A stretch of 64,000 nucleotides of DNA, from assembly GCF_035083965.1 (NCBI RefSeq), contig NC_089722.1, forward strand, positions 24,047,142-24,111,141, written 5' to 3'. The notes beneath the pieces were generated by a model. The model saw only the letters and a list, made by a program, of their open reading frames with translations. It searched no databases and was not told the origin of the DNA. Positions within the stretch are counted from its first letter, which is position 1. Each line of letters starts with the position of its first letter. Of this stretch, positions 6,910-63,850 are shown one piece after another. Both the position numbers and the translations under genes were made by a program. The stretch comes from Branchiostoma lanceolatum. Its lineage: Eukaryota; Chordata; Leptocardii; Amphioxiformes; Branchiostomatidae.

Positions 6910-9900
6910 CTACATGTTGGCCACATAGATCCCGTGGGTCTGCATGGGGACTTTGTTGGGTTGGGAGAGCTCTGCCCGGCCCAGCTCGGTGAAGGTCTTC
7001 CCATCCAGGACCAGCAGGAAACAGGTGGACTTCCCCTCATCCGCCCTCACCACAGCAGACAGGACCACACCTGAGAGAGCAGAGAAGTGCACCCTGGAGG
7101 ATTTTGCTGGAACTGCAGTCTTGTATTACCCTTGCCTCAACCCCAAACCTAGCAGACTGTACTACACCTGAGAGGTGCATGGTCTCCTAAGTGTTGGACT
7201 GTCACCTGGTGGAGTTTCCTGGAACTGCAGTCCTGGATGTCTACTTCAGATCTTTTCATACACATATCACAGGCTACCCATTGGGGGGCCAATTCTCTGT
7301 CTAGACTCCCCTAGTATGAAGATACTATATTGTTCTACTGTATAATCTGTTGATAGACAGTGAATTTTCTCCCCTTTAGATTTTATAGCGTGTTATTTTA
7401 AGAATGTACATGTATATTGCTTGTAAGAGTTTGTATGATTGTATACCTGTATGATTTTATATTGTTAACTGATGTAACCATCTTATTCTATTATGTATTG
7501 TGGAGCAAGGTTAGCCCCTTACAATAGCTACCGCTAGTTGGGCAACCTTAGCTGTTGTACCGTGCACACGTCAAATGAATAAATAAAAAAATAAATCACA
7601 GGCTACTTGAAATGTTTCGGTAATGCACACTTTTCAAGTACAACCAATGATGAATAAACTGAATTATACATTGCTCAACACAAGTACTGACTGTTGACTG
7701 TTGCTATATTCTCTAGATCCAAATGCAATACAATTATAACTACCATCATCCTCTGAGGTTGGGTTTGGTGCCTCCACAAAGACAGGCTCTGAAGTGTAAC
7801 AGTTCTCCTCAGACCAGTATATGTTCTCTTTAGTCTGGGCATCCACCTTCACTAGCTAGGAAAATTGTAATAAAGTTAGCAATCTGGAAAGTAAAGATAC
7901 CCCACACAAACATTTAAAACTTAATTTCATAGTCTAATACACAGTGTAAGTATTACCACAATGTTTTCATGACCCAGATTTTATTACTGTTTAAAACTTA
8001 TACAATGTGGTGCATACTAGTAAGTTGCATGTCAACAAATGTTGTTTTGTAAATGAATTATATACTTATGTCACTTACTCTGAATGGCGTACGGTAAACA
8101 TCTACTGCGTAGATGTAGCGGTACTTCCTCCCATTGTACTTTTCATTAACCCTGGGCAGATCAAAGTTGGCTACAACAAAAAACATGGACAGTACAGGTT
8201 ATTGTACAGGATATTGTACTCTATTGAACAGTGAACGTTATTGTGTGGAAATAGACATGAAAAAGTGACTTCAATTAAAACTAAACTGAAAGATACTACG
8301 GAACTGTTTGAACTATGACAGAGCGAAGAAAAGTGAATTAAGTGAAGAAAAGTCTTCTGTTCCAAGTGTATTGTGATAAGCTGGTAAAATACATATCAAG
8401 AATCAATAAGGTCCACAGTTAACATGAAGATGCATCAGTAATACATAATATTAGTCATAGCAGGTAACTAATTGATCTATTAGACTAATAGTATTTTTTA
8501 CAAAGAAGCAAAATAGATTAATTGCAGTTCCAAGGCAACCTGTTTTGATAGGAAGTGCAAATTGAGTGTGGAAGTGCAAATGAGTGTTGTTCAGCACCAA
8601 GGACAGGTGCGGAATTGTTACTGTACAGTAACTGGCAAAAACTGAAATTCTGTCACCGTAAGCACAGCCTACTTCAACAGAAAAGTAAAATGTGTTCTAT
8701 TCAGCACCAAGGACAGGCATGTTATTGCTTACCACCGATAAGCAATAACGCTGTTGTAAGGCCAAGGAAAAATATGTTGTGTTTCTGCTTACCCCAAAAT
8801 CGGTTACCGACATCCAAAGACAAAAGAAAAAACCTTCCAACCATACTTTTTTCAGGACTGTAATCAGAAAGAAATTTAATCTAATTTTCCTAGACTTTGC
8901 GAAGAACTGTTGTTACCATCAGTGAGGATCTCTGGCACACAGTAGATGGAGTCGTCCTTCCTGATAGCCGAGGCCAGGGTGTCGGACAGCTTCACTAGGT
9001 TCTCATCATCAGGGACGTCCTGTAGGTCACAAATAAACAAGATTATGGGGATAGTTCATCGACTAGTGAGGTTTCACATGCTGCCTGAGGCAAAATTCTT
9101 CACTCTACATCTTCTTTTTGGTCATATCTTTCATTAGTTATTGAGATATTTGCCTCTAAAGTTAGTTAAATTTCCCAAACCCAAGTATTATTCCAGATTG
9201 ATGGGATCATTGATCAGTAGCTTACACCTCTATGTTCTGACACACCTATGTTCCTGTACCCGTGTTCCGACACCCCCTAGCCCTAGCCTTCGCCCTTGTC
9301 CTAGTCTTAGCCCTAAGCCCTAGCCCTAGTCCTAGATTTGTAGCAATGACCTATAACATAGGGGCGTTGGAATGTAGGGGTGTTAGAACATAGGGGCATC
9401 CCCGTTCAGTATTGTAAAAGTCAAGCAAACATTAATATTAATCAACACAATCTACCTCTGGAACATCAAGAGGCAGGACAAATCTAGCAATGTAGTTGTC
9501 CGTGTCTCCGAGCTTCTCGTTGGCCTCCTCCTTGGACCAGGTGCGGAGGTTGTGCAGGTAGAACTGGAAGACGGCATCCATCTTGGCAAAGGCACACAGG
9601 TCCATGACCAGGTGTCCGTTGTCTTCGTACGCGTTGATGTGGTGGAATGTCATCATCGCGTCTGCTGTGTACTTGGTGGTCCAGACCTTCCCTGTGGCCT
9701 TCTCTATAACATGGAACTGGGTCTGGTAAAACAAGGTGAAGAAGACAAAGAAACAACATAAGAAAACAATGGATGATTCAAACATTTTGTCCCAGATTTG
9801 ACTTTTGCTGACCTCGTGTGTTTCTGCATATCCCAATATAGACATTAGCATATATCCTCAGTGTTGCTATTTTTGTCTGTGAAATGAAGGATTGCAAAGC

Positions 9901-12900
9901 GGTATGGGTAATGAGGTAAAGTTTGTCCTCTCTGATTGCCTTGTGTAGTAATTTGGTAGTGAACACGTTTTGGGAATAATGGAAGTTTCTTAATTACTGG
10001 TACGGTCAAACTGATGTACACATGTCCTAATATCTAGAGACAGTGCATTGCACAAAAATTAAAATAATGACAATAATACTAAAGCCTTGAGAGGGATAAT
10101 GCACCAAGCATCTTTGTTAAGTTGCCTGGGGACTTAATTCCAGACCTTAAAAAAATGATGAAGATGGCCAACAACATCTTATGATTCCAGACTCACAGGA
10201 ATCTCCTTGTGAAACTGGAAGGCCCAGTCCACACCCTTGCCCAACAGGGGGCCTGCCATGATCTTCAACACGTTCAGAAAAAATGGCTGCTCCACGAAGA
10301 CAATGTAGTTCTCGGTCATGGCAAAACTGTGGAAGTAGTTCGGGAAGGCACCATACTTCTGGGGGATCTTGGCAATGATGGAGGCTTTCTGGAGGGGGTT
10401 CTCCACTTCACCTGGATTGTCATAAAAAGATATGAACATCAGCTGGATAATCATGATCCCCTCGCTGTTAAGGAGTTCCTTCTTTGTGTTGGATCAAAGC
10501 TCAAAACTTTACAAAATATTTTTCATAAGATTCGTAACTTCTCAGATAGTGCGCCAAAAATAATTACTCAAGCAACTGGATAAAGTTTTGAAAACTTTAT
10601 CCAGTTGCTTGAGTAATTATTTTTGGCATATCTTACTACCTTGATGTCTAACTTTCATCAACGTTTTCAGATAGTGCTTTGTGCATTTTTCATAAAATTT
10701 GTACATTTTGTATCGTACAGTGAGTCACTACTTCATGCCTTTTTCATAAAAGTCCTACCCATTTCATCAAATTTGTAGAAAAATTGCTTAGACACCCTTG
10801 ACTATTGCTACAGTGTCAATCAAACTTCCCCCTACCCTTATCCGGCGGAGGGATCTTGATCAGGCAGTACCCCCCGTTCTTGCCGTAGGTCGTTCCCATG
10901 TTGTACGTGGTTCCGTCTGTGTCGTTCTGAGCATGTGCAGTGGCTCCGTTCACCGCAACATACTTCTCATAGTCTACCTAGAAATATGATCATAATAAAC
11001 AATTTCGACGACGACGAGCGGTGCTCAGGCCAGAATGGTCAAAATGAAATTGCAATATCGCATAGTTTGGATATTGTATAACTTGAAAAGCAGGACTGGT
11101 GCATTTTAGAAGTCTAATCAAAATTTTGAACACTATTCAATGTGAAAGGAAGTCAGAACTTTTGATGAATGAATGATAAGTACTGTACACCATTAATGTT
11201 TCTGTGTTGCATCTATTGACAACTTCTGTTTTGCATTCAGATTTTTCTTCAGCTGACTCAATTCTGAAAGTTTTCCATACATAACTGCTTAATATACATA
11301 AACTGGGAAATATCCCCAATAGAAAAAATGATAATGGTATCTTCACCTTCAATTTGCCGGAGTCCAGGGTTCTGGGGTCGACCTTGCGGATGAAGGGGAG
11401 CTCCGTGTGTGCGTAATATTCCTCCCCCACCTGCATGAGATGGACGTTCCCATTGTCAGTCCTGGGCCTGGACATGGGAGTGAAATAAGCGAACATCCTG
11501 CAGGGAACAGAAAGGTCAACAATTTTGGGGTTATTTCAAGAAATATTAGCAACATTTTCTAAATAAAGTATAGGCTAGTACAGGTGCTTAACAACAGGCA
11601 TCATGAGTTCTTGACTTCTACACTCAAGAACTGACCCTTACCAAACGGTAATGGACATAATGACTTGACCAACTATTATTTGTTATTATTGTTTATTCAT
11701 TATTTATCTATTCTTTGTATCATTGTTACAATTTGAGTCACCTTGGTTCTGACCAAGCTTTAGTTATTTATTGTTATGTTGACCCCTTGACATGCCCTCA
11801 TCTTGACGTCTATGAAAAGCGGCCAAGATGGCCGATTAGAGCTTTTTTCGAGAATAAATAAAGGCACAAACAAACTTAAGAATTTGCATAAGACCAAGAC
11901 ACTGACATTTAAAACTGTAACTTTCCTGACAGAAAAACAGGAACACATGATGTTCTCACAAATGCCCATTTCTCAACTGATTAGAATCTTGAGAGGGATG
12001 TTGGAATAGATTGAATCTAAGTTACATCTACTCAGGCCAATCTGATGCCTGTTCTGCTATATTGAAATTCTGAATCATCAAAACCATTCTTGTATCATGT
12101 TGATGAAGGTTGAGACATCCAGATAGTATTACACAAGATACAGTTAAAAAAATAACTGGATACAATGTTGATCCAGTTCAACTTCAACTTTAGTAACACC
12201 CCCAAATGACCCCATCAGGGGCATAGCAGGGGAGAGGAGGCCCCGGGCTAGGGTGGGCAGGCCTGCAGCCTGGCCCAGAACATCTCAACTGTGGGAGACA
12301 GTTGCTCGAGGAACTGTTATCTTGTGCATTCTTGTACCACAGAAAAGGTACACTCAAGTACCATCAGGAAAGTAAGGAAAGTGATCTCGAACCAGTTTTG
12401 CTCAAATATAATGAACAGATGAGCTAATCTTCCACTGGTCGTGTCAGAGAAGACAGACGCTTTATACAGTATTTTACAGGTTCATTGTACTGGGGAAATT
12501 CCCCTAGCTCTTTTCGACAAGCACAATGAACAGTGGACCACGGCTTAACGTCCCGTCCTAAGGACTGCGGCCCTTTCTGTAAGCGCATGTCGGGATCGAA
12601 CCCGGGGCTTCTAGTTCCAGAGGCAGGGCCGCTAACCACTGGACTACACACGCTACCATAATTTCAGGAATTTTTTCACCTGGAAAAGATGCTCTTGCAG
12701 GGATCAGGGTAGGCGGAGGTGCCGAACTCTGACATGACGATCCTCTTCTGCTCCAGTCCCTGCACATACGCATCACTGCGCAGAAACTTACTCTGGTACC
12801 TCACATCTCCATTCTGTAGATAAGAAGAACTCAATTGGACAACAGTTGCAACAGGTATGGATACCAACTCGTAAATACAACATTGCTCAATCCTTGGCCA

Positions 12901-17312: not shown

Positions 17313-20300
17313 CTATGCTGCCCCCATGGTGCTTGCCAAATTTTCCCTGGCACTCTGCATCCTCTTCCTGGCCTTCTGGAAGGCATCTGGGATAAAGAAA
17401 ACAAACAAACCTAGCATCACAAACTAAATACATGTAGTGCTTAAAAACTGACTTCTGCACTACTAAATTTATAAATCCAACTTTTGTGACTTCTTTCTTT
17501 TTTTTCTCCAAACTTTCTTTAACAACATATGGACAACAGTGGAGGGAAAATAAAGTGAATTCAGATGTACAATGTAGTCACTTACCCAACACATTCATGA
17601 TGTTACTCTGTGCACTCATGCCACTGCAAGAATACAACATGGAATTCAGTACATCTTACGTCTCACTTCATCAGTGCAACAGGACAGAATACACCCTGGC
17701 CAGAATATACCCGGGTATGTTCTAGCCAATGTATAGTCTGGCTTGTTACACTGGTAGTACTGCTTACCATACAGATTTAACAGCCATCAACAAGTGTCCA
17801 GAATAACTATAACAGGAAGCAAGCATAGAGTAATATTTCCTGCACTATCTCGACATGGATAACTTTGTGTGTGTAAACATACTTACCCCAGTCTGTCCAG
17901 TAGAGTGGCTGTCTTCCTCTTCTTTGTCGTAGTCTCCAAAAACGCCCTAGGATGGGAAAAGAGATCACAGCTGTTCTAAACTCTGTAGATATTGAAGATT
18001 CTTAACATGCTGAGGTGCGGCTCTCCTTGGACTAAGAACCTCTATTGTTCCTAATTCTATACAAATAATGGTGCACAAGGCATCATAAAGTACAGAATAC
18101 AGATAGCTAGTCTGTGGTCCAGAAACATTTTCCATACAGCTCAACAAAGACAGAGGACTGAAAATAAAGGTAGCAGAACCTAGAGCCCTGGACTGTGCGA
18201 CACAGAGGAACATTATGGAGAGGAGCAAGGAGTCAGTCCTTGGTCTAGGCATTTAGCCAGTAGACAGGAAGCAAATCGTAGGAAGAAATCTTTCAATTTT
18301 TCTGTTCAATGAAAACATCTTGAAACTATCCCTGACACAACACCCCAGCCCCTACTTACTGGCTCTGCTGTACACAGTACAGCTTAATCTGAATACTGCC
18401 AGACGATTCTGTACGGAAGCCGAACTTGCTGAGTCTCTGTCCGTCGAACGTGGTTGGTACTGCGGTGTACGTCGGATCCTCCAACTCCGGTGATCCCCCG
18501 ACGAAAAATCTCCTCATGGGATCTACCAGGCTGTTACCCACTGGTCTCCAGGTGTGAGTGATCTTATGGTGAACACCTAGCAACAATGACAGGTATCTCA
18601 TAAATGGAAATCTTTAAGGATACCAAAATACTACACACTCTCACATAACTGTTTTTACTACTAAAAAGGAGCTAATGTTTTCATTAGAGTTGGTTTGTCA
18701 GTTCGCTGATTGATTGGTTGATCAATCGATTGATTGATTGGTGAAGTAGGTGAGTAGACAACTTGGAATGGATTTGTGGGTAGATCTTGATCTAATGATG
18801 AAGACGGAAGTTGCATTTTGGCAAAGGCATTGGTCCAAACTTATGAATTCTTCTAATTTCTAACCATTGTAAGACACTGTTATGCCACCTTGCTTGAGGT
18901 TTGCATGTCCCAAGTACTGACTGCTTAGCGGTATTAAATTTTTTTCTTCCCGTCTTTTCTCCACTATACATGTCCATACCTGGGGCTGAGGGAATACTGC
19001 AGTACCCGTACCCCTCTGTACGGTACCTCTGCCAGGAGTCCACAGACAGGACTTGGAGGAAAAGTAGCGGCCACTGGGGCATGTCATCTGCAAGTCAGCA
19101 AAGATCGTGTCAAGGGCAAGAAAAATATTTCTATTTAGTAAAGCATGTGATTGATATCAAACTTTGGAAAAGTTTATGTTTGGCAAAACAAATATATGCT
19201 AAACCACAGGTTCTTAATTCACAACCAAAACATACAATCACTGTGAATAAAGAACCTTGCTATCCAGTGATTCTCCAACCTGATGAAATTATTCTCGGAT
19301 ATACTAAATCACAATGTACTAAATCATACCTTCTGTTTCATTTCTGAAGAAAATCTCATACTCAAAAGGATAGGAGAAATAGGCCACATTATCCTGTGGA
19401 AAAAAAAGTAGATTTGAGGTTAGTTAATCAATGAATACTTCATCTCAAACTGACTCAGAGGTCTTCAAAGTGCAGGGCATCTTTGAAAAGTCATAGAAAG
19501 AGACATCACAAGCGGATTGTTCTTACCTTGTCCTCCACTTTAGTGGCAGCTGTGTGTGTGACTCCTGATAACTGCTGTCCGTGGTCTGAGGTCCAATCTG
19601 GGATGAGGAAAAAGTGGGATTGTTTAGCCAAATAGTGCAAGGGTTAGGTTTCTTGACATTTACGAAAAAAAGGTTTCTGACTTTTCTGTAAATTATCTTA
19701 ATTGCATTAGAAAACATGTATCAGTCTATTAGGACAAGCAATTGCAGATGGTGTTCTGGACTAGGAACAGGTGCTAGAGGCAGGTGTACTTACCAGTGTG
19801 TGGATGCTGTGTTCAGCACCAAGGACAGTTATGTGGGTGGATGGTGTTCAGGGACAGCTGTGTTTGCCTGTGTGTGGATGGTGTTGAGCATCAAGGACAG
19901 GTATGTATGTGGATGGTGTTTAGGGACAGGTGTATATATTTGCCAATGTGTGGATGCTGTGTTCAGCGCCAAGGACAGGTGTGTGTGTGTGTGTGGCTGG
20001 TGTTCAGGGACTGTATGTTTGCCTGTGTATGGATGGTGTTCAGCACCAAGGACAGATATGTTTGTGTTCAGAGACAGGTGTGTTTGCCTGTGTGTGGAAG
20101 GTGTTTTCAGCACCAAGGACATTTGCATGGATGGGTTGGGTGTGGTACTAGAGCATTCATCATGTCAGCACAGGCACAGTCTTTGTACAATTCGATGCCA
20201 ACTGCAAAATAGACTTTTCTTTAGATGATTTTCAAGTAAAGGCTAAGGGTCTAACTTACTTCTTGGCAGTTCGAGGAAGAAGTTGATGTGTAGGTTGTCA

Positions 20301-47607: not shown

Positions 47608-49887
47608 TTTGAAGCGTGTGTTCCTGTTCTGTGTCTGTAGAAGAGAATGAAAATGAGAACCACCCCGGGTCTTGTGTGTCGTTCGTCGCTGCTGTCACTC
47701 CACCACGGTAGACCTGAAATGTGCTCCCAGCCGCGCGTTTGCTCAACCGCCAGAAACACGTCACCTGGCCGGATTTTAGGGGGCGAACCAAAACGATGGA
47801 GGGAGGGGGAACTGTGTAAATAGAATATTGGGGCAAAATCTTCACTTCGAGTGAAAGCTGCGTTTGGAAAATCTATTTTGCATTTTAAACTTGTGTATTC
47901 AAACTGATGACCGTCAAAGTTGTCCCTTTTTACTGGATACGTATATCTCTGCTGCATTTATTTGTCAAATCCCACCCCTCATCCTTTTTGGTCTGCCCGA
48001 CTGTTTAATCATTGGGCGTCCGTCAATCTGCTTAAGAGCACTGTCTCTATGGCAACCGTGTAGTGCTTTGATTGGAGGTTGTTTTAGTTGGTCGTACTGA
48101 CGTCATACTTTTGATGGTAGCTTTTAGCGCGCGATCGTCACGCCTCGAACAGCTCACTAGTCCTAGCGGATTTCTGCCATCTTTAGTTTTGAAAACAAGC
48201 ACAGGTGGTCGCGTGAACGGGAAGTTCAACGGGATTAAGGTTAATATTTGAAGGGCTGTAATGCGCATGCGTGTGCTGAACCATGCTCCCGACAGTATTG
48301 TCAAAACCGTTAACATTGTCCTTCATGTGTATGCACGTCAATGGCACGGCTGGACTTAATCCCTTCATACATAGGATTATTTCCTGGAACAGTTTATCCC
48401 CATGGCAACACGCATATGTTAAAAACCAAGAGTGGCCGGGAAATTTTCCACGGATTAAGTCTTTAAATAGGAATGACGTCTTTTCCCGCCAAACAAGGTC
48501 ATATGCTTCATATAGTGTATGTAAAGAAATACACAAGAAAGAATCGGGTTGAGAAGTACTCTTTGCGCGGTGCTTTGCAAGTGTGGACGTGAAGGGCTAG
48601 CTTATGCGTTCAGAATAACTACATTTCTACTTAACCTGAAGTGAAAACTTTACCAAGGTATCTTTAATTCAATTATCACTCCTTCCGTTTCCTATGGTGT
48701 AGCTCTAATCGCTACCAATGCAAGACACTGAATTACAAATACACTTTGTACACAACAAAGTGTCTTATAAAGCGGGCGTAATTCAGCCGACGTTTCGGCG
48801 ACCGTCTGTCACCTTAATCAGGGCAGGCCACTGTCCGGTGGGTGCCTGATAGCTTGCCGGTTCGTGTCTCTATCTACTTCCTCCATCCCGTCTTCCTTCT
48901 CTCCACACTCGGAAGACGTTGGACGAGGGCCAATATGGTTCCTGTGTGATAAATACCTAAGGGCAAGTACAGGCAAACTTCCGCGGGAATTCACGCGGCG
49001 GTTTTACAGATGTGTACCGGCTGAAAGCACGGTAGGCACGGTTGTGTTCTGGTCGTATGAAAAGAGACACCGGTTCTAGATAATAGCTTTACCACTTTTA
49101 TTGTTAGGCATGAGTACAGAGAGACGTACCCAAAATAGTCACGGCAAATGTAAGATATCTCTTATATATACACATGGTAATATATGATTTTGACCGGTGC
49201 AGTGGATGTTACGATATCATGTACTACAAAACGGGAGACGCACCAAATAACCGTTGAAGCGGAATACGCACCGTTTTCTTGAAGCCATACTTCGTTGAGC
49301 ACGGGCCCAATAGATAACATAAGATCACTGGGCAAGGTTGGGGCGATCTGCAACTTTTTCCCACAACATATCAAACGTTCAAGATCTTAACGTATGACGC
49401 AGTCACATGTATATTTCTTTTGTTCGGACTGATCGATTTTGACGTGAATTGGCGCCACAAGCAGCTCTTATGGCTGCCTTTTGCAGCACGAAGACCAACT
49501 TTTGTATTAGATAAGAGTCCATTCGTGCTTTGATGGTGTTTCTCACAAGCTTAGATATTGATGTAGTGTCCTCACGCCAGTACTGGTACGTGCTTTTCCG
49601 CTTCTCCAGTACTTTGAAATGACATCATTGTTCCTGTTTATGGTCATCTGAGATCCCCCTCAAAGCACGTTAGATTTGTTTGGACATGACATATCTTACG
49701 TGTATGTACCTGGGCTGATTTTACACATTTAAATTGTAAATGCCTAGCTAGGCCTAGAGAAGCATGCACGATCGACCATTTTGACCAACCGCCGGTGGAA
49801 TAGATTCCACAATATTAACAGCCACGAAAATGCGTGTTGGAAATTCGAAAGCATTCATACAATATCCAATGTTACATAGTAACAGTA
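47608..49887. other. small-peptide gene 5' region and spacer
   Basis: The bases upstream of 47607 are presumably 5' UTR and promoter of the small-peptide gene. They stay open on the minus strand for some 70 codons, but with no recognised domain. The rest is spacer containing the retroelement-like block near 48.7-48.85 kb. No other gene is supported. Confidence 0.45.
48738..48840 (-). mobile_element. Penelope-like or related retroelement terminal fragment with hammerhead-like core
   Basis: On the minus strand CTGATTA (48821-48815) is followed by a six-base-pair hairpin (GGTGAC ... GTCGCC, loop about five bases) and then GAAA (48796-48793) and CGTC. The order CUGANGA, helix II, GAAA is the hammerhead ribozyme core, here with one core change (G to U). 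The hairpin pairs fully only as minus-strand RNA, through a G-U pair; the plus strand has a C-A mismatch. Such motifs are known in Penelope-like element terminal repeats. No reverse transcriptase is present. Confidence 0.4.
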
Positions 49888-52800
49888 TCACAGTAGGGTG
49901 CACTTGGATTGTCCTATGTCTGGCTGTGGAAGAACAGGGAGCCTTGCACTTGCAGTGTCCTTGGGCGGCCCTTCAAAGTAGATTCTCAGCATGACCAGGT
50001 ACAGCTCCCCTAGCGACTTGTTGCGGCACCATAGGGACTCGTTGCCCACCAGGTGAGCCCAGCCGCGAGGGATGTTGGGCGGGATTTTGACGGTCAGAGT
50101 TTCAGCAGAGATGACGCGGCAATCTGGGGGAAAGAAACAATGTGAGGAAGGGGCCACTTGGTACCATGAGAACATCAGCTCATACCAACATGGCAAAAAG
50201 CGCAGGTCAATTGAGAAAAATAACTTTCCCCTGAACATTTACTTGTATATTTCCATCAAATGTGATACCTGCGATTCGAAGCCACTGCACTGCCTCCTCC
50301 ATGGTTTTTAGGACCGTTTGAAACTGAGTTTTGGTTCGGTAGCCGTCCTCATTGAGCTGCAACGGTGCGAAGGTTCTTGCACAAGGCTGCACTTCTCCTA
50401 CGTCCCGGGAGGGGGCGCGTTTGACGTAAACCAGTCTGAGAGTCCGTACGAAGAGCACGCTTCCACTTCCCTCGATGTAGAACGATCTTTGGGAATCTGT
50501 GAGAATAGTTAATTAACCGATAAGAAACGTCCTTGAAATACCCACCGACTAGTTAATCCCATTACAGTTGTGGGGAGGGGGGCACTGACAACGATTAACG
50601 GTAAATTCAGTAAGTCAAGCAACGCTTAACGATAAGTTGACGCGTATTGCTATACGCGCTACATTGCATTCGGGTATCTCAATTGGTAAGACCAGACTAT
50701 GAACATCGACACAACCGGGCGCTCCCTTGTGAATTTTGGGGAATCTTGCGTTCGACTACGCGATACAAAGAATTTGCAAATGTAGCGCTTAAACCAGTTA
50801 AGGATAGGTTCTGAATAACAAATAACGTGATACGTAGAATATAAAGCGCTTCACGAAGAATTTACGAACGCTTAACGTTGAAGTAGAGGGGACCGGCTAC
50901 GATTAACGATGCATTGAAATAGCTAATTATAGTATACGGGAAAATACATGGAATACATGGAAAAATACATGCAAACCCTCTTAATCTTGAAAGAGTCTCG
51001 TGGTGATTTTGAGAATACTAGTACTACATTTGCCCCGTGCGTACCTGCCATGCCGTGCCGGGTGGCCTTCACGCTGACCGTCTGCAGGTTGGTGACCCGG
51101 CCGCCCCGGTCCAGGTGGTGCCGGACCCAGCCCCGCGCCTGGGACGTCAGTTTGGGGAAGGTCTCCAGAATGGGGTCGTCGATAAAGGACGTAGCAGGAT
51201 GGACCACACGGGGGACAAAATCCACCATAGCTGAGGCACGGGAAAGAACAAGACTGTCAATCATGACGTCATTTAGTGTCCGCCACGCTGACAGATCAAT
51301 GTTATGAGAAATGATCCAATTGATTTTCCACTACTAATATCATGTGCTATTACATGTATCGTTCACTACTAATATCTAGTATTTAGTATTCATTCATAAT
51401 GATAACAAGTCATTACACTGGGTCAGCCTAGCTAGGCAGCTCTCGCTGGTACATGGTAACGGCTGACCCACAATAATACAGACGACCTTACAACTTGTAT
51501 ACATAACCTACAGTGAATGGAGTAAAAATAATTTCAATACTAGTATACACACAATGCAGTACAAAATAATCATAAGAATATTTCAACATACTGTGCCAGA
51601 CAATGAGCAATTTCTTACTTAAAATCATTATTGTCCATCCGTTCCAAAATTACCCGAGAGCCATCTTGGATCCATGCACTCCACCATGGCGATCAACAAC
51701 AAGCGTAAGGCTATGTACATCGACACGTACTTATCTCCTCCCCAACAGGTGGCCCCTCCAGATAGAACACCCTGATGACGTACAGGTGGGTTGTTCTGTG
51801 CAGACAGCTGCAGCAGCAGGTGCACACAGCCTCGTTCTCGTGCCAGCTGCAGGAGTCAGGGTCAGTCCCGTCCGTAGAACATTCCATGTCCAACGTCTCC
51901 ACTGTCAGGACTTCACCTGTGTAAAGCGTATCTTATTCCTCTTACCACACAGAGTTTAGAGCAATCGATATATCGTACGTTTTATTTCAGATGATAAACA
52001 TGTACAACGTCTCTACTGTCAGGACTTCATCTATACAAGGTGTATTGTAGTTTGTTTCACCAAGATCTTAAAGGGGGCATATCTTTTTATACGATATATG
52101 AAATATGTTTGATAAATGAATACATTGAATACATGAATATTTGAAAACAAATACCTGGTATGGGGTCCTGCCTGAATGACTCGTTCATCCTCCCCAACAG
52201 CTCACCAAGTGACTCGAACTGGTTCGAACCGGATTGTGCCTGATCGTCTGGCAGCTCCCTCGGAACAAAATCGACCTTTCTTATACGAGGAGCTCCGGAG
52301 GTCGGACTTTTGGCCCCAGACGATACAAGCCATAGTCTGAAAAGATACGTCAAATAGAATGCGGTGCCTACTAGTAAAACACAGGGAAAAGATCAGTAAA
52401 AGACCTAAGATAACACGACAGAAACAGTTACTAGTATCTGTATTGTTAACTTACCGGAGTCCCCTGATGTAAGGGTCATTGCTCCTCCTGCCACTGACCA
52501 GCGACACGTCCGTGCACGCCACCTGTCGGTCCCCTGAGTACTGCACCTCTAATGTCTCGCACGTCCTGACGTCATACTGACGGTGGTCTTCAAGGAACGC
52601 GTTTGCTCTGTCTACGAGAGTTCTGTAGGATGTGCACGAAATTATTCATTCATATCCTCCCATATCAATGTTGATCCCCACTCCCGTTTGGATCTACCAT
52701 CCCCCTTTTGATCAAACGTGATCCGTCCCCAAATGAACTTTACTTTAGAACCCGTCCAAAGTTCACCAATTGTAGATATATGTAACGTCATATATCAAGC

Positions 52801-53228
52801 ATTTACTTCGTACAATATTTCAGAAACAATGTCTAACTACCGACCCCAAAAAAGAAAGACTTCTAGCGATGGCTAGACCGAATTTATAAAAGTGAATTAC
52901 ACTGAAAGAGGGCAAAAATTCAAGAAAAAGAAGCAAGGCTATAGCAGAACGGCATTGTTTAGTGCAGAAACTGTACATGTCAATTGACATATCAACTATA
53001 CACAGGGCCCTATAGTCGTCATACTGAGGAGAAGAACACTCACCCGAATCTCTCATATTCAGAGCTCACGTGTTCTCCTATCAGCCTGGGTAGGAAGTCT
53101 TTGAAGGACAGAGGGCTGACTGACAGTGGGTCTTCAGATTGTTCCTCTGACGTGTTGTCACTCAGACGTGTAAAAACGGGCTCCTCCTCTGGTGTTTCCT
53201 CCCGTGTATCTTCACTACTCTCACTCAT
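49888..53228 (-). CDS. uncharacterised 456-residue protein with four internal domain repeats
   Basis: Seven exons: 53228-53044, 52622-52455, 52336-52155, 51916-51731, 51230-51045, 50496-50269, 50123-49888. All junctions are GT-AG, and one frame runs from ATG to a stop at 49888. There is no signal peptide or membrane segment. The first 40 residues are acidic and Ser/Glu-rich. The rest reads as four copies of a roughly 85-100-residue unit, at about 43-125, 137-235, 241-330 and 345-433. Each unit begins with a (V)DFxPR-like segment (KDFLPR, VDFVPR, VDFVPR, TFAP). A helix-like stretch follows (LVDRANAFLEDH, LLGRMNESF, GWVRHHLD, AVQWLRIA). Then come a CETLEVQ / VETLDME / LQTVSVKA / AETLTVK strand and a closing LRLWLV / IRVFYLEG / LRLVYVK / LRIYFEG strand. 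Repeat 2 has a Cys cluster (CTCCCSC). I do not recognise the family; a cytosolic modular protein is an inference. Confidence 0.8.
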
Positions 53229-54549
53229 GATTGCATGACACCTAGTCTAACATTGACACTGTTACAGACCTACAACTCTGTCCCATGTTGTCACGCTGCC
53301 AGTCCTTTGTATATCTCCCGTCTAGATCTGCCTTGTCAGTCTCAGTATGTTATACCATCCAACATTTGACTTGAACAACATTCAGTTTGTGTAATTACGC
53401 TCAATTACCTTTGCCTTTTAGCCTAGTGTTACAGCAGGAACATTCCAAAGTCTGTCGTAAACAACTGCGCTTGTACGTGTGCCGTCGCAAATTCTTTCGA
53501 CCTTTTAATGATTAAAAATAGAATGGCTGGATTACACTCTCCTGTAGGTAGGTGAACACGTATAATTTTAAACGTCCCGCAATATTTCTTTTAAGTAACA
53601 CAATTATGTTTTCTTTTCCAGAAAAAAAACCTCACGTACTTGACATACCGATTTTCTGGGCTGAAGATCCTTTGGTATCAACTTGCCAGGCAAGTCTGAA
53701 GTGCTACAAATGTGTAGCAAGAACTTGTTTGTTTTCCCACGTACACCGCCCCCTGTTCCCATGTCTCGGCAATGTGGACTTTCTAACATATTGATTTAAC
53801 CTGTACTGACCTCTAACACCGCCCCCTGTTTATTTGTAGTCTGGTTTAATCATTACGTTTAACCACCTGTTAATATTAACAGATCAGTACGCGTTAGTAC
53901 ACTTAGTACATGCAGAAGGGGAAAGTGTCAGAACTAGCCGGTGGTTTACCTACGGTTACGTACAAATATATATGTACATGTACATGTTCAATGTGTTACC
54001 TTCAATAGTAATTTATTGTGTCAAATCTCTCCAAAATAAGAAAAGATCGAGTCTCTCAGGCAAACAAAAGTATCAGGGTCGATTAGAATATGTAGGTTAT
54101 ATATGTATTAATCCGGCTCGTGACATTAGGCTCTTTTGAGACAATAAGAAATGACGTACAGAAACTGACGTTTTTTACGCATAACTTTATTGTTCACATT
54201 CTTAATCCCAAGTCAGGATCTAGCAGCTCGACTCATCAAGAATTCTTGCACATAATTTACTTTAGCCCGTTACCATGCAGAGGACAAAATGAGCGACTCG
54301 AGCTCTTGCTTACCAGTCTATTTGCGTGACAACAGAGTAAAACGTTACAGCAACAAAACCATTACAAGTCTATATCAAAGCACGAGTTTATGAACGAGAA
54401 GATGTTCGTTTCCACAATGGCTTTAGCATTATGATGAAATACAAAGTAATGTTTAGTGTCAGTGGAGCTCGGCTCTCACGTTCTGCAGCTAGTGCCTTCG
54501 CTAGGTGGCGCTAGTTAGTCATGTCCTGCAGTGTCTCCTCTAGGGGGAG
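53229..54549. other. spacer between the four-repeat gene and the LRR-DD gene
   Basis: No recognised exon. The part just above 53228 is the presumed 5' UTR and promoter of the four-repeat gene, and the part just below 54550 is the 3' UTR of the LRR-DD gene. No clear repeat was found. Confidence 0.5.
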
Positions 54550-57308
54550 CTACTCCCTCATGTCCTGTAGTGTCTCCGCTAGATGGTGCAGTCGGATGGA
54601 TCTCAGGTGCTCCACCAGGCGGTCCAGCGTGGCGCATTCCCCCGCCTGCTCCCGCCAGGCCATCAGCACCTTGTATGTCTGCTCCTGCAAGTTGTCCTGT
54701 GCGTTCTCCTAAAATGCACGAGAAATACGAAGTTTAGCTAACAGTGTAAAGAAATGCGCTGCAAAGAGTGTACTAAAACATGTATACTACAACAACCTTT
54801 GTCACAGATTGTAAAAAACGAACAAATGTCTATCTGAACCTGTGTTGATAAATAACATTGGGGAAAAGTCATATGTGCCGTGTTCATAAGGTCACGTGTC
54901 CAAATCAATGGCTCATGCTTTCTGAAGAAGATTATGCAGACAGCTTACACTTTGTCTGATTTTTTTCATGACGTGCAAATCAAAGTTGAATTTACAATTG
55001 TGACCATTTTTTGAAATACTTGAAATGCCAAAGAATATGTTATAGGTATAGGATGGATAGCTTCAGTGGTTGAGACTATCTACACATCCTAATAGACTGT
55101 CAGAACGTACCTGTATGGCGTGCAGCTCCAGGTCCGTCAGCCCAAGCTCCCGGCCGATCCACCGCCACTCAGCCCGCTCCACCTCCGCGGACAGCGCGTT
55201 CATCAGCCGGCTGAACTCACGGTCTGAACAAAAACACAAGCCGCACGCTTCGTCAAGACACACGTCATCGATCAGTGATCAAATCTTGACAAACAAACCC
55301 TCTTATGTCAATCTGAAACAGTAACCTATCAAAGGCGCACACTTAGTCACTAACTTTTTGTTTCTTTGTCAGTACTTGTTTGTTTTCTTGTGTATATCTA
55401 TATACACATGCATATTCATGCCAAGCAGTGTTATTGATATAAGTTGAAATACTTGAGTGTAGCGCCACTTTGTCTTAAGTTTGTTTCCTGAAGAGTGAAA
55501 GACATTGTTGAATTTGTATACCACTGTTATTCGACTTTTTACTTGGTTATCTGTTACTCCGTACGTTTCATGACATCTTAATCTTTCGCAATATCACATA
55601 CATTCCAAAGCAGTCAAATGTGACTCTCTGTGTTATATACTGAGTAAGCCGAACACTTCATCTAAAGTGTGTACTTGAAATTGGTCCTGAAATTGTGCAT
55701 TTGGTCACGAACGCTCCGTTCTGTTAGTTTTTTAATCAGCCGAAAGGGTTGAAGAAACACTTCAGCACTCAACGCATTCCCATGTTAAGCCAAGTTTGTG
55801 CATATAGTTGAGTGCGTTTCCCTGTTTTGTTAATACAGGTTGTGCTAGAGAGACGTCTACAGACGTTTCAATCTACTGGCATGGAGCAAGTCATAGTTAG
55901 CGGGAGAAGGCTTGTCCCTTCAAACAATTGTTCAACTGCATGTAGTCAGTGGTATTCACTTATGCAATGTGAATGTGATAGAATGTAAAAGAACTGTGGG
56001 ATGACTTGAATGATAGAGTGACTTTTTGAGAAGAATTCTAGTACATTTAATCTTAACATCAATTGGAATATATTGGTATTTTACAGACTACGAGACAAAA
56101 AGATAAACCTAGAAGAAATATGGCATAATTTATAACTTACCTTCTCTCTCCCTTCTGATCCTCTCCAGTCGTGCCTCCTCCGTGAGGAAGGCCATGATGT
56201 CGGCAACTCCCCCATTCAGCACCTCGGCAGGAGGGTATGTCAGGGGGTTACCGGATACATCGATCTGCTCGATGTTGGCGAGTTTGTGCATGGCCGGGGG
56301 AAGACTCGTGATGCCGTTGTTCTTCAGCTTCAGAACCTTCAGGTTGGTGAGAGTCAGGATCTGCGGTGGGAGGTACGAGAGGCGGTTGTAGCTCAGGCTG
56401 AGGTACTCCAGCTTAGTGAGCGCACCGACCCCGTCCGGGAGGGCCTCCAGCCCGCACACATCCACAGCCAGGCGCTTCAGGTTCCTCAGCATCGCGATGT
56501 CCTTGGGTACGAAGGACCGTCGACCCTGCCCGGACCACCGCCCCATGTACAGCTCCTCCAGAGCCCACAGGTGCAGCACCTGGGCGGGGAACACTTTGAA
56601 GTGGGACGCGCTGATGCTCAGCACCCTGAGTTTGGTCAGTTTGATGATGTTCTCCGGCAGTTCGTGTATGACGTTATCACCCACGTGTAGCACCTGCAGG
56701 TGACACAGTTTGCAGATATCGGCCGGAAGTGACGTGAAGCGGTTGCTCTGGATGCTGAGCATCTTGAGTGACTGTAGGTTAGCTATCCCCGGAGGCAGCG
56801 ACGATAGCTTGTTCTTGTACAGACTTAGAGTTTGCAGATTCGACAGCATGCATAGCGTCCCCGGCAGTGATTCGATCTCGTTCTCTCCTAGCCAGATTTC
56901 TTTCAAATTGTACAACTTGTCTACGTCTTCACTCAGCGTGGTTATCTTGTTTCCAGGTGCGACGAGGACCTCTAGCGTCTGCAGGTTGTACAGCTCCTCG
57001 GGCAGTTTCTCAATCCCACACCTCTGAACTCTCAGCTCCCGAAGTTTCACCAGAAGCCCAATCTGGCGAGGCAGGTGTCCGAGATTCGTGTTGTTTCCCA
57101 AGTCTAAGATAACTAACGAAGCGAGGTTAGCGGCTTCCCGTGGTACTACAGCCGTACAGATGTTATTGTCCTGAAGATCTAACCTCTCTAGATCAATATG
57201 TTCGAAGATCGCAGGAGGAATGACCAACAACTTTTGATTGCTAAGATCTAGAGTCTTCCAACCGTCCTTCACACAGCGGTAGGAACTTATATTCCTCGGA
57301 GACGCCAT
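54550..57308 (-). CDS. leucine-rich repeat plus death-domain protein
   Basis: Three coding exons: 57308-56141, 55223-55111, 54708-54550, giving 479 residues. Residues about 15-375, all in one exon, form about 14 LRRs of the short intracellular type (LxxLxxLxLxxNxLxxLP, for example LQTLSLYKNKLSSLPPGIAN). A basic linker (LERIRRERE) leads to a C-terminal death domain split over two exons. The first half contains WRWIGRELGLTDLELHAIQ. The second contains TYKVLMAWREQ and ATLDRLVEHLRSI. Death domains dimerise homotypically to build signalling platforms. The LRR plus DD pairing is known in PIDD1, but PIDD1's ZU5 and self-cleaving regions are absent. This is therefore a minimal adaptor of the kind expanded in amphioxus, not a clear PIDD1 orthologue. 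The ATG lies a few bases after an acceptor, so a 5' UTR exon lies upstream. Confidence 0.93.
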
Positions 57309-63399: not shown

Positions 63400-63850
63400 A
63401 TCTGTGACAGGACTTCTCCTTGGAACTTAACTCAGTATCACTATATAAAACCTCCTTGGTATCACCAAATATTATATATCTGTGACAGGATCTCTCCTTG
63501 GTACTGAACTGAGTATCACCAACTATTACATGTCTGTGACAGGATCTCTCCTTGGTACTGAACTGAGTATCACCAACTATTACATATCTGTGACAGGACC
63601 TCTCCTTGGTACTGAACTAAGTATCACCAACTATTACATATCAGAGACAGTACCTCTCCTTGGTACTAAACTCAGTATCACCAACTATTACATATCTGTA
63701 ACAGGACCTCTCCTTGGTACTGAACTAAGTATCACCAACTATTACATATCAGAGACAGGACCTCTCCTTGGTACTAAACTCAGTATCACCAACTATTACA
63801 TATCTGTAACAGGACCTCTCCTTGGTACTGAATTCAGTATCACCAGCTAA
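63400..63850. repeat. 54-bp tandem repeat (minisatellite)
   Basis: Seven units with period 54 bp (core TCTCCTTGGTACTGAACT and CAGTATCACCAACTATTACA) follow one diverged unit at the left. Units alternate between TCTGTGAC/TCTGTAAC and TCAGAGAC starts, giving a 108-bp higher-order pattern in the right half. Because 54 is a multiple of three, one frame stays open for 122 codons with an 18-residue repeat. Its position inside a likely GTF2H3 intron argues against coding. Confidence 0.9.

Follow-up and report, generated by a model that had tools for sequence, protein, structure and literature searches.

Evidence for an old four-fold internal duplication in an uncharacterised amphioxus protein

What kind of protein is encoded on the minus strand between positions 53228 and 49888 of the 64,000-nucleotide stretch of Branchiostoma lanceolatum DNA analysed here (the window), and is it built, as the original prediction proposed, from four copies of an undescribed-looking domain? 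We find that the locus is a functional-looking protein-coding gene whose product carries four tandem, anciently duplicated units of about 90 residues behind a short acidic N-terminus. How securely each copy can be recognised, whether the unit belongs to a family already named, and what the protein might do are taken up in turn below.

An intact seven-exon gene

The gene runs on the minus strand from an ATG at 53228 to a stop codon ending at 49888, with an in-frame stop upstream of the ATG (open reading frame 53040..53246). Joining the following seven exons yields the intact frame of 456 residues that had been predicted, and the nearest candidate polyadenylation signal 3' of the stop is listed with them.

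53044..53228, minus strand: exon 1, acidic N-terminus (residues 1-37) and entry segment of unit 1; ATG at 53228, donor gtgagt
52455..52622, minus strand: exon 2, helix, ETL strand and part of the closing strand of unit 1; acceptor acag, donor gtaagt, phase 2 in
52155..52336, minus strand: exon 3, end of the unit 1 closing strand, then the entry (VDFVPR) and helix of unit 2; acceptor tcag, donor gtattt
51731..51916, minus strand: exon 4, ETL strand, Cys-rich loop (CTCCCSC) and closing strand of unit 2; acceptor acag, donor gtacgt
51045..51230, minus strand: exon 5, entry (VDFVPR), helix and ETL-type (QTV) strand of unit 3; acceptor tcag, donor gtacgc
50269..50496, minus strand: exon 6, closing strand of unit 3, then the entry (TFAPL) and helix of unit 4; acceptor acag, donor gtatca
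49888..50123, minus strand: exon 7, ETL and closing strands of unit 4, C-terminal tail and stop; acceptor ccag
49097..49102, minus strand: candidate polyadenylation signal AATAAA, from a scan of 48000-49888 (1.9 kb)

All six introns (421, 118, 238, 500, 548, and 145 nt) begin with GT and end with AG. Coding scores, computed with the codon usage of the LRR exon next to the gene as the training set and compared across the three frames of each exon, are best in the frame used here for every one of the seven exons; exon 1 scores 0.13, against -0.01 and -0.36 in its other frames, and exon 7 has the highest score of the set (0.43). Third-codon-position GC is 0.65 in the exons versus an intron GC content of 0.39. 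A chance assembly of exons or a decayed gene is very improbable and can be set aside: the chain is known here from genomic DNA alone and intron 3 holds a partial exon copy, as such a reading would allow, but the unbroken 456-codon frame with canonical splice sites, the coding signal, and the resemblance of the exons to one another at the protein level speak against a pseudogene or gene-model artefact.

Four diverged copies of one unit

Downstream of the acidic N-terminus, the same order of predicted elements recurs: a D-F-x-P-R entry, an amphipathic helix, an E-T-L strand, a variable loop, and a closing strand. The four units, with the comparisons by which each is recognised, are as follows.

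52318..53117 (span with introns), minus strand: unit 1, residues 38-124; pairwise comparison, leave-one-out profile, self-alignment, motifs
51753..52287 (span with intron 3), minus strand: unit 2, residues 135-233; pairwise comparison, leave-one-out profile, self-alignment, motifs
50417..51743 (span with introns), minus strand: unit 3, residues 237-329; pairwise comparison, leave-one-out profile, self-alignment, motifs
49963..50395 (span with intron 6), minus strand: unit 4, residues 337-432, the weakest copy; leave-one-out profile, position of intron 6

Self-alignment of residues 38-456 of the spliced protein, with no units preset, returned a top match of 44-144 with 140-248 (score 72) and a second match of 40-235 with 240-432 (score 55 over 183 aligned pairs). 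Both exceed anything obtained from 60 shuffles of residues 38-432 (mean 31.4, maximum 46), whereas the next four self-matches, at 25 to 29, score no higher than shuffles. The protein thus has the self-similarity at repeated offsets of a tandem intragenic repeat, and each copy is also recognisable from the others by profile, although unit 4 is missed by plain pairwise comparison. Profiles built from the other three units score units 1 to 4 at 15.8, 14.5, 6.8, and 5.7 bits, values matched by 0, 0, 4, and 2 of 1,000 shuffles, respectively (only 847 to 934 shuffles per 1,000 being reported at all). When the units are split into two-unit profiles and aligned with hhalign, the three possible pairings give E values of 4.6e-4, 1.9e-3, and 5.7e-5, at modest probabilities of 33, 14, and 66 percent.

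Pairwise tests are more uneven. Local alignment scores for units 1-2, 1-3, and 2-3 are attained by 0, 6, and 12 of 1,000 shuffles, the last of these matches being just nine residues around VDFVPR, and the local scores of unit 4 against units 1, 2, and 3 are not significant (370, 114, and 85 of 1,000 shuffles). Global tests on the two halves of each unit show that most of the signal comes from the first half of units 1 to 3, where the entry and helix lie; the second half is significant in one of six pairs (2-3, 9 of 1,000 shuffles), and unit 4 has no significant global pairwise test. Three sequence motifs occur four times each and in strict rotation (at residues 44, 84, and 117; 140, 185, and 226; 244, 290, and 322; and 344, 386, and 424, by unit), and none of 20,000 shuffles contained three occurrences of any one motif, a test made optimistic by the patterns having been composed after the copies were seen.

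Taken at the level of the sequence, the reading of units 1 to 3 as copies of one unit is solid. Unit 4 is a probable fourth copy, on the grounds of its leave-one-out profile score, its motif order, and an intron placed near that of unit 2. We hold the four-unit duplication as a whole with high confidence, and the four-times repeated order that had been claimed is borne out by self-alignment, profiles, and motif rotation, strongly for units 1 to 3 and moderately for unit 4; the divergence of the copies likewise supports the proposed age of the duplication.

Intron positions bear on how the copies arose. Introns 3 and 6 share phase 1, splitting a codon 6 and 7 residues, respectively, before the E of ETL, and they sit at the helix/strand borders of units 2 and 4. 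Such near-equivalent introns support common descent of these two units, even though their sequences alone hardly show it. Intron 4, also phase 1, lies between units 2 and 3, and for introns 1, 2, and 5 inspection by eye shows no equivalent in other units; because the introns within units 1 and 3 occupy different positions, simple duplication of one module encoded by two exons does not explain the whole gene. We also considered that units 3 and 4 arose by duplication of a block composed of units 1 and 2. The second self-alignment, which pairs 40-235 with 240-432, is what such a history would leave behind, as are the intron common to units 2 and 4 and the EGPP with which both units end, but units 2 and 4 do not match significantly in either half, and unit 1 resembles unit 2 most.

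Within intron 3 lies a further short duplicate.

51999..52045, minus strand: partial copy of the head of exon 4, 83 percent identity over 47 nt

This copy lies 114 nt from its source, takes in the acceptor of the exon 4 head (and so carries a possible acceptor of its own), and reads DEVLTVETLYMFII before reaching a stop (open reading frame 51987..52067). To judge from its sequence, it is probably what remains of a duplication, within this gene, of part of an exon.

Known families and the predicted fold of the unit

The original prediction recognised no named domain in the protein, and in the libraries searched (Pfam, NCBIfam, PHROGs, PADLOC, and PDB) the description "undescribed-looking" holds at the sequence level. 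The HMM search that it had proposed, of the whole protein against Pfam, returned no row at E values up to 10, and hence no match to a single known domain; nor was there a row in NCBIfam 20.0. The four single units yielded only two rows from Pfam-A, I-set (E 0.077, unit 2) and LonB_AAA-LID (E 0.096, unit 4), both below their curated cut-offs, and three consensus-like strings yielded one, TdIF1_2nd (E 0.11), also below cut-off. We reject all three: the Pfam rows have the look of chance hits and are not shared between units, and the I-set match reaches 13.5 bits, in unit 2 alone of the four, against a curated cut-off of 23.7 bits. A titin-like identity is rejected as well, since PDB sequences searched with the whole protein and the consensus-like strings produced only titin fragments at E 0.096 to 0.28, covering 39-41 query residues, and the four-unit profile produced no PDB row.

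Collections of viral and prokaryotic sequences were similarly unproductive. PHROGs 4 returned four families, each in one of the four units (best E 0.21), and PADLOC-DB 2 a single weak row, CARF7 (E 0.0092), rejected as confined to one unit of four. Whole-protein scans of viral contigs and prokaryote genome contigs gave 97 and 194 pattern matches, respectively, none confirmed as a relative; these scans were seeded by six exact eight-residue peptides and so reach only close relatives. A tblastn search of phages with the whole protein had no match at E up to 1, and a search of plasmids with one consensus-like string gave only rows at E 0.9 (eight Prescottella records with the same short match), which we discount. 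With viral, phage, plasmid, and prokaryote sequences and the PDB as the collections covered, these negatives say little about other animals. Inside the window, the unit profile detects no second gene with the unit among 2,908 stop-to-stop frames, the rows with E below 0.5 all coming from the seven exons of this gene, where a match is inevitable. Peptide strings in full-text literature retrieved only papers unrelated by title, and literature on amphioxus domains held no description of the protein in the titles and abstract beginnings among the matches listed. Some uncharacterised animal proteins may have a comparable helix (A-N-x-W-L) and comparable strands (E-T/S-V and G-L-R-L-W), a resemblance to which we give no weight as evidence.

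The order of the conserved elements suggests that each unit may be arranged as beta-alpha-beta-beta, and we lean moderately toward the view that it is a small alpha+beta module. In all four units, the hydrophobic moment of the helix segment is greater at 100 than at 170 degrees (0.40-0.52 versus 0.07-0.41), and that of the ETL segment is greater at 170 than at 100 degrees. The entry and closing segments each have moments favouring helix (100 degrees) in three of four units, against a strand reading. Predicted models are of poor quality: that of exon 5 with three other exon pieces (mean pLDDT 57.2) has a long helix at 19-40, which we count toward the alpha+beta reading because it falls where a helix is expected, and that of exon 2 alone (mean pLDDT 45.5) has a helix at 2-12; both single-exon models contain no strands.

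Two accounts of the unit's affinities follow, and we give them equal credence, somewhat short of an even chance in each case. By the first, the units would be highly diverged members of a known fold or family (of the dodecin/SHS2 class with its strand-helix-strand-strand order, for example, or of another small alpha+beta class), from which their function would follow. The proposed element order is common to several known folds, and profile searches with one to four fast-evolving sequences, such as those against Pfam and the PDB here, have little reach, but no convincing match to Pfam, NCBIfam, or the PDB emerged. Among fold leads, dodecin looked the best. The dodecin/SHS2-like class consists of strand, helix, strand, and strand, the same order as proposed for the amphioxus unit, which by eye has longer entry-to-helix and beta2-beta3 loops; dodecin chains (20 listed for a dodecin query) are 62-79 residues long, in contrast to four units per chain here. 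No Pfam row was found for the dodecin family (PF07311), and hhalign of the unit profile against one dodecin gave a probability of 0.13 percent and a score of 9.15 over 10 columns, below that of at least 10 of 100 shuffled dodecins, so we reject this candidate.

The TRADD-N domain is a second point of comparison: PMC8195603 describes it as RRM-like alpha+beta, expanded in amphioxus, and gives it two helices. The likeness lies in a small alpha+beta domain (as proposed for the unit) in an animal with many copies. The differences are the two helices described there as opposed to the one predicted here, the absence of any TRADD-N-type Pfam row, and the absence of a DED or other adaptor domain beside the amphioxus units.

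By the second account, the unit would represent a domain family uncatalogued in Pfam and the PDB, in which the core is conserved and a hypervariable loop turns every copy into a separate binding module. Lineage-specific domains that still lack a name are frequent in the genomes of invertebrate chordates.

Possible function and gene neighbourhood

The loops between the E-T-L and closing strands are the part of the unit that varies most between copies, in both length and sequence. Net charge is -11 in residues 1-37, -10 in unit 2, and +4 in unit 3, and unit 2 has seven cysteines and the CTCCCSC loop (51732-51914, minus strand). Read by eye, the sequence has no obvious signal peptide or membrane segment, and we therefore take the protein to be soluble and cytosolic or nuclear. 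Our best overall guess, a tentative one, is that the protein is a soluble scaffold inside the cell, made up of four small alpha+beta modules. The mechanism that we can offer for it is more doubtful still, and we infer every functional step: the protein might act as a non-enzymatic scaffold or adaptor whose four modules share their core but would differ in the binding surface formed by the loop before the closing strand; the Cys-rich loop in unit 2 is a possible metal site; and the charge contrast between units 2 and 3 could let neighbouring modules pack against each other. The CTCCCSC loop is partly encoded by a TGC run and may accordingly be a microsatellite product rather than a selected metal site. 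Against an enzyme, the sole argument is that no family match was found.

The original prediction also hinted at a shared immune role with an LRR death-domain gene beside it. That gene is real: it lies upstream on the same strand, about 1.3 kb away (54553-57305, minus), and matches the Pfam families LRR (PF13855, E 6.2e-39) and Death (PF00531, E 1.1e-9). One of its stretches, 55117-55275, has no Pfam row when searched alone, though by position it should be the first half of the Death domain. The hint itself did not hold up, as nothing was found that links the two genes. It is improbable that the four-unit protein is a cytosolic immune component acting with this neighbour, despite their proximity and shared strand, the neighbour's domain content, and the expansion and rearrangement of amphioxus innate immune genes described in PMC2575513. 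Adjacency in an animal genome is weak evidence, and the neighbour's last frame stops at 54550, just after the Death match (open reading frame 54550..54708), so the two genes look separate. The four-unit protein has no LRR, Death, CARD, NACHT, or TIR domain (Pfam, whole protein, E up to 10), and its sole PADLOC row is the weak CARF7 match noted above. Other neighbours, from a Pfam scan of ten stretches picked from the coding-score list, are unrelated: the TFIIH subunit Tfb4, a ubiquitin-conjugating enzyme, TPGS1 (two stretches), and RPE65 (two stretches), with two stretches lacking a row. The gene's company suggests no shared role, and its position says nothing about immunity.

Of the RPE65-type stretches (PF03055, minus strand), 9456-9704 is a carotenoid oxygenase-type exon with an E value of 2.7e-11, and 11341-11478 (E 0.0022) falls below the curated cut-off. 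At the far end of the window, a 54-nt minisatellite (63459-63849; 7.2 copies, 91 percent matches), its unit a multiple of three, lies inside an open plus-strand frame of 133 amino acids (63449..63850). ARAGORN found no tRNA in the window, and Rfam gave no row other than mir-2060 (19981-20067; 56.3 bits against a cut-off of 54.5), which falls within a tandem array (19781-20121) made up of 4.6 copies of a 72-nt unit. The first 19 of the 20 letters of Branchiostoma belcheri miR-2060c-3p, as published in PMC5650284, occur exactly at 8589-8607, and the mature-like sequence recurs with one mismatch at 8699 (region 8589-8717). The Rfam row and the exact miR-2060c-3p match agree with an amphioxus origin of the window. 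The mir-2060 "family" in the window looks repeat-derived.

The four-unit protein is uncharacterised and internally duplicated, and nothing yet points to a major function. Genome annotation is blind to domains that the family libraries lack, and four diverged copies in one chordate protein are enough to start a profile and to seek the unit in other animals; the protein is likewise a clear target for structure determination. If it has no vertebrate relatives, the gene would be one of many lineage-restricted genes; if such relatives are found, the amphioxus gene would help to date and interpret them.
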